A stretch of 64,000 nt of DNA, taken from positions 1,985,001 through 2,049,000 of the forward strand of contig NC_007759.1 in assembly GCF_000013405.1 (NCBI RefSeq), given 5' to 3'. Position 1 is the first letter of the stretch; every line of letters starts with the position of its first letter. Below are positions 16,708 to 27,346 of the stretch, piece after piece. A program made the translations under genes and the position numbers. The stretch comes from Syntrophus aciditrophicus SB. Its GTDB lineage: Bacteria > Desulfobacterota > Syntrophia > Syntrophales > Syntrophaceae. The notes under the pieces are model-generated. The model did not search any database. It saw only the letters and a program-made list of their open reading frames with translations, and was not told the origin of the DNA.

Positions 16708-17039
16708 GACTTCCTCCTTTTCTTCATTCTTCAATCCGCTTTGTAGTCCACTTTAACGATTCCTGAGACAGAAACTGTTCAGGGATCGACTCTACACATC
16801 AATATTTTTCTTATTTTTAGCACGAAACAGTTCTCTGGATCAAATTAATTTACAAATGATTTCAATGCAGAAAAAATACAATCATCGGATAGGGATGAAT
16901 CGGCTACCAGAGAAACATTCAAACAGGCAGGGAAAATGGCAAGAAAATGACGGAGAAACTGGGCTCAAAAAACAAACCGGATACTTGAGATAAACCTCAA
17001 ATATCCGGTCGGTTCTTTCCTTCATGATTTTCTATAAAA
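16708..17039. other. Intergenic region upstream of the YtxH operon
   Basis: About 330 bp, AT-rich, holding the terminator of the small-lipoprotein genes at 16967-17009 and presumably the promoter of the YtxH operon, for which I see no convincing consensus. No gene seen. Confidence 0.6.
16967..17009 (-). terminator. Rho-independent terminator of the tandem lipoprotein genes
   Basis: Stem ACCGGATACTTGAG / CTCAAATATCCGGT with 13 of 14 positions paired and a loop of about six bases, followed on the minus strand by a T-rich tail (A-runs at 16967-16976 on the plus strand). It lies 30 bases past the stop of the minus-strand gene at 17040. Confidence 0.85.
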
Positions 17040-17282
17040 TTACTTTGCCGGAGCTGGTGCCGGAGCTGCTTCCGGAGCGGGTGCCGGTGCAGGCGCTGCT
17101 TCGGGCGCTGCCGGGGCCGGAGCCGGAGCTGGCGCTGCGGGCTCTGCCGGGGCCGGGGCCGGGGCTTCCTGCTTTACAGCTTCCTCAGGCTTCTGCTCCT
17201 CAGCTTTCTTGCAACCAACGACTGCAAAGGATAACGTCACAAAGAAAAGCGCTGAAAACAGAACGGATAAAATCCTCTTCAT
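17040..17282 (-). CDS. Small Ala/Pro-rich lipoprotein, copy 2
   Basis: 80 residues. Signal peptide ending in the lipobox FAVVGC, then a short charged segment KKAEEQKPEEAVKQE and a low-complexity tail of Ala-Pro with occasional Glu. After lipidation the mature part would be an extended, rod-like tether of about 56 residues, comparable in concept to small abundant envelope lipoproteins. A strong GGAGGTGAT precedes the ATG. It is a tandem copy of the adjacent upstream gene with identical length. No enzymatic motif; a structural role in the envelope is inferred. Confidence 0.85.
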   Translation of the reverse strand: MKRILSVLFSALFFVTLSFAVVGCKKAEEQKPEEAVKQEAPAPAPAEPAAPAPAPAPAAPEAAPAPAPAPEAAPAPAPAK

Positions 17283-17335
17283 TTAGGTATCACCTCCTTT
17301 CAGTTTTTTTCCAATCCTACTATCTTTCGATCATA

Positions 17336-17578
17336 TTACTTTGCCGGTGCTGGTGCCGGAGCTGCTTCCGGAGCGGGTGCCGGTGCAGGCGCTGCCGGAG
17401 CCGGAGCCGCTTCAGGTGCTGGAGCAGGCGCTGCTGGCGCTACGGGAGCCGGGGCCGGGGCTTCCTGCTTTACAGCTTCCTCAGGCTTCTGCTCTTCAGC
17501 CTTCTTACAACCAACGACTGCAAAGGATAACGCTGCAAAGAAAACCGCCGTGATAACGAGCACTAATAGTTTCTTCAT
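17336..17578 (-). CDS. Small Ala/Pro-rich lipoprotein, copy 1
   Basis: 80 residues, paralogous to the neighbour downstream. The lipobox region and the charged segment after it are identical in both copies, while the signal-peptide core and the Ala/Pro order differ. GGAGGTGA lies eight bases before the ATG, and a sigma-70 promoter lies about 70 bases upstream, so the pair is probably well expressed from one transcript ending at 16967. Function unknown; abundant lipid-anchored spacer is the simplest reading. Confidence 0.85.
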   Translation of the reverse strand: MKKLLVLVITAVFFAALSFAVVGCKKAEEQKPEEAVKQEAPAPAPVAPAAPAPAPEAAPAPAAPAPAPAPEAAPAPAPAK

Positions 17579-25831: not shown

Positions 25832-26502
25832 TACCCTACCTCCCGTTCTTTATGGATTGTTCCTGTCTGAAAGGAACTCGCAGCGGATTTTCTCTGCAGT
25901 CGTTCCTTTTTCAGAAGCTGTGTCCAGATTTTATCGATCTGCGCCTGTGTCTGTTCCCGGGGACCGGCATTGTTCACGATGATGTCGGCGAAGTCAATCT
26001 TGTCCTCGATGGACATCTGGGAATTGACCCGCTGGATCGCCTCTTCGGGACTGTAGCCGTTTCTCAGGATGAGGCGGCGAATCTGTTCCTGCGGCGGAAT
26101 ATAGACCAGCAGGATCACGTCATAATCATTCTGCTTCCCCAGTTCGATGAGCAGTGGAAAATCCGAAACGACGATGGCATCGGGTCGAACACCGCGGATC
26201 TCCTCAACGCTGCGCCGCCAGGCCTCGAAAACCGCCGGATGAACGATCTCATTGAGCTTTTCCAGCTTCCGGCGGTCGGCAAAAACCAGAGTCCCCAGGC
26301 GGGCCCGGTCTATGGTACGGTCTTCCCGAAGGACGTCCGGACCGAAGGTATCGACGATTCCCCGCCAGGCAGGCTTATCGGGTTCCTCCACGTCATGGGC
26401 AAGACGGTCGAAGTCAATGATGAATGCGCCCTTTCCCTCAAGCATCCGGGCAACTGTGGATTTTCCGCAGGAAATGCTTCCCGTCAAACCGACATTCAAC
26501 AT
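25831..26502 (-). CDS. coaE: Dephospho-CoA kinase
   Basis: Last step of CoA biosynthesis. About 223 residues, with the P-loop GLTGSISCGKST at the N-terminus, the DFDRLAHD acceptor motif and VVSDFPLL. The P-loop has Ser-Cys where most enzymes have Gly-Ser. The ATG at 26502 has AAGGGG four bases upstream and begins where homologues begin; the frame extends to 26538. The C-terminus is about 20 residues longer than average and basic. Overlaps the carbonic anhydrase start by one base. Together with coaX at 35 kb it indicates full CoA synthesis. Confidence 0.94.
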   Translation of the reverse strand: MLNVGLTGSISCGKSTVARMLEGKGAFIIDFDRLAHDVEEPDKPAWRGIVDTFGPDVLREDRTIDRARLGTLVFADRRKLEKLNEIVHPAVFEAWRRSVEEIRGVRPDAIVVSDFPLLIELGKQNDYDVILLVYIPPQEQIRRLILRNGYSPEEAIQRVNSQMSIEDKIDFADIIVNNAGPREQTQAQIDKIWTQLLKKERLQRKSAASSFQTGTIHKEREVG

Positions 26503-26633
26503 GGCGCCCCTTCTACCACAGGGAACGCCTTCCGGCAATGAAAACCTTGTTCTTCCGTAGAAAAAACCATGCTGAAATCCATCAGATCGTGTTCGCGCTC
26601 TCAGTCAGCAGGCGAGCTGTTCAGGAAAAGGCT

Positions 26634-27137
26634 TTATGCCCCGCCGGTCCGGGTCCGGCCTTCTTCATCGTTCAGATGATCCAGCAGCGAGAGGAGTTCC
26701 CCATTTTCCACGATATCGGACATGGAATTGCCATAATGCACGAAGCGGATCACCCCCTGCTTGTCAATTACGAGCTGTGCCGGCAGACGGCCAAGTTTCA
26801 GCAGTTTCACCTGCTGGCCATATCTTTTGGAGACGGTATGATCGGGGTCGGGCAATCCGACAAACGGCATCTCGTGTTCGCGCCACCATTTCGTAAAAGC
26901 CTCCGCATTTTCTGGACCGATCGCAACCACCTCGGCATTTCTTTTCACAAAATCAGGATAATCCCGACGCAACTGCGCCATGTGCCGGCGGCAGTAAGGT
27001 CAAATAAAACCGCGGTTGAAAATCAGGACGACGTGCCTTTCACCTCGATAACCGGAGAGCCTGATCTGACGTCCTTCACTGTCCGCAAGTTCGAAATCGG
27101 GTGCGGGTTTATGCAGGACAATTTCGCTTCCGTTCAT
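26634..27137 (-). CDS. Peroxiredoxin-like selenoprotein with in-frame UGA (selenocysteine)
   Basis: 167 residues when the UGA at 27002-27000 is read as selenocysteine. Thioredoxin-fold AhpC/TSA protein: HKPAPDFEL near residue 10 is the family start, and the active site reads NRGFI-U46-P-Y-C49, a U-x-x-C redox pair at the exact place where AhpC-like proteins have their reactive Cys. The frame before and after the UGA is open and continuous: 45 codons before, 121 after, ending at 26634. A bacterial SECIS-type hairpin begins five bases after the UGA. The ATG at 27137 has GGAGGT eight bases upstream. Annotation pipelines would break this gene in two. Likely role: reduction of peroxides or disulphides in an anaerobe. 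Confidence 0.88.
26973..26994 (-). promoter_or_regulatory. bSECIS-like hairpin for selenocysteine insertion
   Basis: On the minus strand CTGC-C-GCC, loop GGCACAT, GGC-GCAG: a seven-pair stem with one bulged C and an apical loop starting with GG, about 14 bases after the UGA. GG in the apical loop and this spacing are features of bacterial SECIS elements bound by SelB. Confidence 0.7.
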
Positions 27138-27346
27138 GATGTCCACCTCCATCCTTTCGACCCCTCCTGTTCCCGCAGCTGTAATCGGTTTGAGATCAAC
27201 AGCACTGATTAAAATATTTGGCTTTTTCCCCTCTCTTTCCCCTGAGGCAGCAAGCATTGTATAAAAATATGTGGCACTTTTTGAATCGATCTTTACTTGA
27301 GTTCCGGAATCTCACCTTGAAAGTCAACTGCCCGTACCCTGAGCAT

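Follow-up and report, generated by a model that had tools for sequence, protein, structure and literature searches.

Does the minus strand at positions 26634–27137 encode two short proteins separated by a stop codon or a single selenoprotein whose reading frame contains an in-frame UGA, and, if the latter, what kind of enzyme would it be? The question arises in the window, i.e., the whole 64,000-nt stretch of the Syntrophus aciditrophicus SB genome analyzed here, in which an earlier note had proposed a peroxiredoxin-like selenoprotein hidden by the UGA. We confirm that the UGA-split selenoprotein gene, as observed, is real, and the selenoprotein reading, taken by itself, is close to certain. 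The joint claim that the gene encodes a selenoprotein and that this protein is a Sec oxidoreductase of thioredoxin-like type built on a peroxiredoxin scaffold, of the kind termed "Prx-like thiol:disulfide oxidoreductase," is one that we consider probable.

Results

A Single Gene Split by an In-Frame UGA

Two minus-strand frames in the same register are indeed separated only by a TGA and six codons, and plain ORF calling yields the two fragments expected by the earlier note, namely, pieces of 85 aa (27000–27257) and 115 aa (26634–26981). When the UGA is taken as one residue, the frame runs from an ATG at 27137–27135 to a TAA at 26636–26634 and gives 167 aa with the anticipated motif, U46-P47-Y48-C49; the next ATG (26981) lies six codons past the UGA. 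A Pfam AhpC-TSA match (PF00578) spans the UGA, extending over residues 10–132 with an E value of 7.7e-29 and a score of 100.6 bits against a gathering cutoff of 26, which places the protein within this domain family. Since the domain covers both sides of the UGA, the joined frame is more than a product of chance. The features of the locus are as follows:

26634–27137, minus strand: gene for the 167-aa selenoprotein with its PF00578 domain; coordinates include the TAA stop (frame reading and Pfam match)
27143–27150, minus strand: likely ribosome-binding site GGAGGTGG, 5' of the ATG at 27137 (read by eye)
27000–27002, minus strand: UGA codon read as selenocysteine, U46 (TGA in 127/132 distinct members, Cys in 5)
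26991–26993, minus strand: codon of Cys49, +3 from Sec, at the place that the peroxidatic Cys takes in true peroxiredoxins (alignments; Cys in 120/132 distinct members)
27012–27014, minus strand: codon of Arg42, invariant, at the place of Pro in PxxxTxxC (136/136 rows)
26781–26783, minus strand: codon of Pro119, invariant, at the probable thioredoxin cis-Pro place, which is Arg in peroxiredoxins (136/136 rows; role from PMC2757866)
26973–26994, minus strand: alternative hairpin with GG in its loop, as proposed earlier (drawable; pairing not conserved)
26965–26980, minus strand: bacterial SECIS (bSECIS) upper stem-loop, UGGCGC-AGUU-GCGUCG, loop at 26971–26974, 25 nt past the UGA (codon freeze and conserved pairing)

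From their translations, we take the 5' neighbor to be acyl-CoA synthetase-like and the 3' neighbor to be dephospho-CoA kinase-like. An open frame of 262 aa on the opposite strand (26424–27212, plus strand) overlaps the whole selenoprotein gene; it is probably spurious, and it could get annotated instead. An Rfam scan of the 64-kb window gave nothing above cutoffs, and a scan of the window for further read-through genes, judged by eye, returned ordinary genes only, extended past a terminal TGA or 5' of their start. Also within the window, at 17024–17530 (plus strand), lies an open frame whose translation opens with Pro/Leu/Glu-rich near-repeats and which may be a chance frame.

The Genome Carries the Selenocysteine Machinery

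The selenoprotein reading had led to the prediction of SelA, SelB, SelC, and SelD elsewhere in the genome, and a genome search recovered all of them: a tRNA-Sec with anticodon TCA (77.4 bits) together with selA, selB, and selD, so that the absence named beforehand as grounds for rejection is not what we found. The selD gene (C1:1086624–1087553) has one in-frame TGA, and selenophosphate synthetase is therefore probably itself a selenoprotein. Searching the genome with PF00578 gave six matches, two of which carry a TGA: the gene at 26634–27137 and a second gene (L057, C1:2170649–2171029) with the motif T-S-G-U, which by this motif is a predicted Sec peroxiredoxin distinct from the first. The same genome also has a CxxC redoxin gene (C1:2726487–2726820) that is split over two frames in a frameshift-like manner.

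A Conserved Hairpin 3' of the UGA

We examined codon usage downstream of the UGA in 92 members and found the synonymous choice at codons +8 through +11 nearly frozen. The frozen Leu was TTG in 92/92 (background 19%) and the frozen Ala GCG in 99% of 88 (background 25%), while the frozen Gln was CAG in 91/91 (background 77%) and the frozen Arg CGC in 80% of 91 (background 37%). At other conserved positions of these genes, Leu and Ala codons were near background, and the peptide patterns used to find the loci had no overlap with codons +8 to +11. A milder codon bias, at −1, +2, +4, and +5, lies within the range of the other, GG-loop hairpin.

The frozen codons spell the hairpin GGCGC-AGUU-GCGYC, the loop of which begins 25 nt past the UGA and has G second, followed by U, in line with published bSECIS rules (PMC13188914). 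Across 81 sequences, 80 of them distinct, pairing was intact in 97.9% of the cells of the 6-pair stem, GU wobbles included, compared to 18–30% when the partner was slid by one column and 38–67% when it was slid by two or three. Covariation in the stem appears slight, with a single case of two-sided change (G-C to U-A in L082), a level reached by 3/500 shuffles. Codon freeze and conserved pairing together indicate that this hairpin is a bacterial SECIS.

Published rules for bSECIS elements specify a loop of 3–9 nt whose first two positions include G, a stem of at least 4 bp, a distance of 16–37 nt from the UGA, and a minimum free energy of −7.5 kcal/mol or lower (PMC13188914). The hairpin at 26965–26980 agrees with them in loop (AGUU), stem (6 bp), and spacing (25 nt). 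In energy, the upper stem-loop of this gene taken alone reaches −6.6 kcal/mol, short of the −7.5 limit, with several relatives at −9 to −10; the full 45 nt reach −16, albeit with a different pairing. Against synonymous recodings, the hairpin of this gene gave p 0.05, and 61/100 UGA members, taken singly, beat their recodings at p < 0.05. Two members with a UGA (L054 and L024) had no rule-fitting hairpin, and one (L031) was marginal. Rule-fitting hairpins were also present, near that position but with different sequences, in six relatives with a UxxA active site: CATCTG-GGC-CAGATG in L034 (in varied form in L039 and L040), GGCACC-TGGA-GGTGCT in both L036 and L037, and another in L038. Of these six, 4/6 beat synonymous recodings at p < 0.05. 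When four Cys forms were tested, three were without a hairpin and one (L052) had one, at p 0.02.

The hairpin to which the earlier note had drawn attention, with GG in its loop and five bases past the UGA, is a different one. It can be drawn as described, and its pairing belongs to the minimum-energy fold of this sequence (z −1.29; 20/200 shuffles as good), where it outcompetes the 26965–26980 stem. However, it is not conserved: only 79.8% was paired in the 81 sequences (80 distinct), 387/500 shuffles paired at least as well, and three loop-side pairs were broken in 28, 40, and 43 of 80. We rejected it as the SECIS; the conserved element is the next hairpin, at 26965–26980.

Selenocysteine Is Retained in Nearly All Members Read

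Among 395 genomes of the phylum, 308 had some match at E 0.001, a figure that reflects a broad domain, and a close homolog (E 1.2e-28 or better) was present in 22, the source genome included. A TGA lies inside 21 of the 22 best rows; in the 22nd, the frameshifted copy of genome G130, it lies in the second piece (L055), where the Sec UGA is kept and the frameshift follows shortly after. In a scan with one genome per species, the best 80 of 297 relatives were read, the unread ones possibly holding more Cys forms, and 80/80 had TGA exactly at the U46 site with Cys at +3. The closest genus-named match among these best 80 of 297 was from Syntrophus sp. PtaU1.Bin005 (72% identity), and the taxa given in the record titles are Deltaproteobacteria, Chloroflexi, Actinobacteria, and Myxococcales, along with a KSB3 and some bacteria of no assigned place. 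In Chloroflexota, 37/301 genomes had a match at E 1e-20, amounting to 49 rows, of which 44 had a TGA and 30 were read.

The resulting alignment of 136 rows was reduced to 132 distinct members by collapsing four duplicate pairs. The frameshifted copy of one genome (L041/L055) and a short piece (L046) stand outside the 136 rows, and seven other PF00578 rows served as outgroups and were left out of the counts. At site 46, we read Sec in 127 of the 132 distinct members, Cys in 5, and any other residue in 0, while the +3 residue was Cys in 120, Ala in 6, Ser in 4, and Thr in 2. Comparison with Cys-containing homologs, as the earlier note had advised, thus does reveal Cys in the place of U46, and no homolog read had neither Cys nor Sec. 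Arg42 and Pro119 were identical in 136/136 rows.

Four of the five Cys forms (L050–L053) are from a single genome (G085), which also has a UxxA Sec form (L038), and in a quick tree (partial L035 and L170 excluded), the Sec form of G011, a genome with the same genus label, is nested among Cys forms. The fifth Cys form (L167) is from G675, a genome with no tRNA-Sec match. Because 62/134 inner branches of the tree are open, we claim no direction of Sec/Cys change. The alignment also points to a sister group in which Sec is retained and Cys49 is lost (L034, L035, L036–L040, and L054), comprising UxxA (6), UxxT (1), and UxxS (1). Two PF00578 proteins from other genomes of the phylum (L044 and L049), with an in-frame TGA in RGHWUPYC/RGHWUPFC, apparently constitute a separate UxxC group.

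We also analyzed the co-occurrence of tRNA-Sec, which was found in 40/50 carrier genomes tested (50 of the 80 loci), compared to 231/301 Chloroflexota genomes overall; the other 10/50 were without a match, many genomes being metagenome assemblies. Within Chloroflexota, tRNA-Sec was found in 34/37 genomes with a match (E 1e-20) versus 197/264 without (Fisher p 0.02, crossed by eye), and the three carriers without a tRNA-Sec match (G675, G684, and G702) each had a TGA-bearing row. As an argument, co-occurrence beyond the source genome is weak. In the neighborhood of the 80 loci, many with short flanks, the commonest neighbor families occurred in 14, 12, and 12; no partner common to the whole family was found, and none of the window's own neighbors fell in a cluster of more than two loci. 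The last two of these families, seen in Chloroflexi loci (L101, L102, and related ones), are a protein of 367 aa on the upstream side and, on the downstream side, a probable membrane protein of 113 aa; they sit within 300 nt of the Sec gene at 11 and 12 loci, respectively, out of 80, so a lineage-limited partner is possible.

Could the UGA nonetheless be a true stop or a sequencing error, so that the locus holds a pair of genuine short proteins or a gene in decay? Standard gene finding does give two ORFs, and the L055 copy in another genome is frameshifted past the Sec codon. However, the same UGA recurs in 127/132 distinct members from several phyla, and conservation is continuous through it, with frozen codons behind it, which leaves this reading a vanishingly small probability. 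An in-frame UGA alone does not name the residue inserted, and a suppressor might supply another amino acid, such as Trp or Cys. Against such decoding, which we rate as very improbable and barely ahead of a true stop, stand the tRNA-Sec(UCA), selA, selB, and selD of the genome and the SECIS-like hairpin 3' of the UGA, as well as the observation that Cys is the sole alternative at the site and Trp is never seen.

Active-Site Register and Predicted Fold

We then asked where the selenocysteine falls within the active site. When solved peroxiredoxins and ResA were aligned by profile, position 46 coincided with the Thr of TxxC and with the leading Cys of CxxC; the structure alignment comprised 38 of the 80 loci plus the gene of the window. 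In two BCP-type relatives (L042/L043), P42/T46/C49 match R42/U46/C49 of this protein. The earlier placement of Sec at the canonical peroxidatic position therefore does not hold: by structure profiles and BCP/PrxQ-type relatives alike, U46 lies on the Thr, and it is Cys49 that lies on the peroxidatic Cys. The protein likewise departs from the PxxxT(S)xxC/U motif, in which the peroxidatic residue comes last. In peroxiredoxins, the thioredoxin cis-Pro position holds a catalytic Arg, and TxxC corresponds to CxxC without its first Cys (PMC2757866). Pro119 falls on this cis-Pro/Arg place only if the following strand is aligned gap-free; since HMMER and MAFFT put gaps in its loop, where MAFFT aligned a neighboring Pro of the BCP rows, this assignment is less sure than the register of U46.

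An AlphaFold2 model (pLDDT 90.4) predicts a peroxiredoxin-type fold, in which helix H47–65 begins right after U46. In two fold comparisons, the 50 matches listed in each were peroxiredoxins, with Prx1, AhpE, Bcp4, and Bcp1 tied at the top. The active-site register, together with the model and its fold matches, suggests a peroxiredoxin scaffold bearing a thioredoxin-type nucleophile; because the nearest solved folds are peroxiredoxins, a peroxidase role is also possible.

These data bear on the earlier proposal that the protein is a genuine Sec peroxiredoxin with Sec46 as its peroxidatic residue. The AhpC-TSA domain, the peroxiredoxins among the fold-comparison matches listed, and the Sec/Cys pair within the active-site loop all agree with it, and it deserves real weight, although we consider it unlikely. 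U46 sits on the Thr of TxxC rather than on the peroxidatic Cys, the Pro of PxxxTxxC is replaced by Arg42 in every one of the 136 rows, and the place of the catalytic Arg is taken by Pro119, if read back gap-free from the next strand. Furthermore, a separate, true TxxU Sec-peroxiredoxin is encoded in the same genome.

Discussion

In the working model, a Sec oxidoreductase with a peroxiredoxin scaffold and a thioredoxin-like active site would operate as follows. The UGA at 27000–27002 would be decoded as Sec by SelB and tRNA-Sec, guided by GGCGC-AGUU-GCGUC, an element seen by comparison of relatives. The active site would resemble that of thioredoxin or ResA, with Sec46 as the nucleophile at the place of the N-terminal Cys of CxxC and a Pro near or at the cis-Pro place. 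The selenolate of Sec46 would attack an oxidized substrate, either a disulfide or, as in glutathione peroxidase, a peroxide. In the clade of this protein, Cys49 would then act on the adduct as the resolving residue, giving a selenenylsulfide to be reopened by thioredoxin or a comparable reductant. The Sec of glutathione peroxidase sits at the same place as Sec46, and a glutathione peroxidase-like peroxidase with Sec at this place is possible. The protein is probably cytoplasmic.

More tentatively, the members read may form a distinct, near-Sec-only family, a proposal that we find plausible but somewhat doubtful. In such a family, Sec at the place of the first thioredoxin Cys would be indispensable and the second Cys optional (mostly UxxC, with UxxA, UxxT, and UxxS), giving a monoselenol enzyme with the Sec in a glutathione-peroxidase/deiodinase-like position on a peroxiredoxin scaffold, and a codon-frozen SECIS would be common to Desulfobacterota, Chloroflexota, Actinomycetota, and Myxococcota.

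At the level of annotation, one mis-split gene is settled and its SECIS placed. What seems less well known is the strict retention of Sec among the members read and the existence of relatives with Sec but without the second Cys. In a 2006 survey, Cys forms far outnumbered Sec forms in the majority of selenoprotein families (PMC1794560), in contrast to the present family, in which Cys rarely replaces Sec (5/132 distinct members read). Relatives that have lost the second Cys provide a natural test of which residue is the active one; a search of openly accessible papers found none on UxxA selenoproteins. Since no NCBIfam model reaches its cutoff for this protein, such genes may still be annotated as fragments, and the same search of openly accessible papers found none on selenoprotein in-frame TGA codons in connection with NCBIfam/PGAP.

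Comparison with Known Systems

Several known systems resemble this protein to different degrees. In ResA/TlpA thiol-disulfide oxidoreductases, the leading Cys of CxxC lines up with Sec46, and there is a Pro opposite Pro119, but the present protein has no leader peptide, as judged by eye, and its fold matches listed (50 in each comparison) are peroxiredoxins, with ResA still a possible match. Selenocysteine peroxiredoxins (TxxU) share both domain and fold, yet their Sec occupies the peroxidatic position, whereas here it occupies the place of the Thr. Among NCBIfam models, the SelL-related redox protein (NF040769) is the best match of this protein and is matched by 26/26 scanned members; the score of 66.6 bits, against a cutoff of 120, leaves this protein outside that family as defined.

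The closest likeness is to the Prx-like thiol:disulfide oxidoreductase selenoproteins (PF00578, UxxC/UxxU), with which the protein shares the PF00578 domain, UxxC, and a bSECIS right after the UGA (PMC1794560, PMC9312934, PMC13188914). A Prx-like protein with a thioredoxin-like UXXC active site in place of TXXU was described from the Sargasso Sea in 2005 (PMC1088965), and reviews from 2022 and 2026 class the family as predicted rather than verified (PMC9312934, PMC13188914). With its PF00578 domain and UxxC, the protein falls under the published family definition (PMC9312934, PMC13188914). The family was published as a broad one; among the PF00578 rows consulted in these reviews, none is UxxA, UxxT, or UxxS, and UxxS appears there under PF13911/cd02970 (PMC9312934, PMC13188914). 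Nor was the gene altogether hidden, as the earlier note had it: Table 3 of the 2006 survey credits Syntrophus aciditrophicus with 19 selenoproteins, among them one peroxiredoxin and one Prx-like thiol:disulfide oxidoreductase (PMC1794560). By elimination only, the gene at 26634–27137 is very probably the latter, because the genome search with PF00578 gave no other UGA-bearing gene lacking TxxU. It is a genuine selenoprotein from a family already known by prediction, one very probably already counted in this organism.
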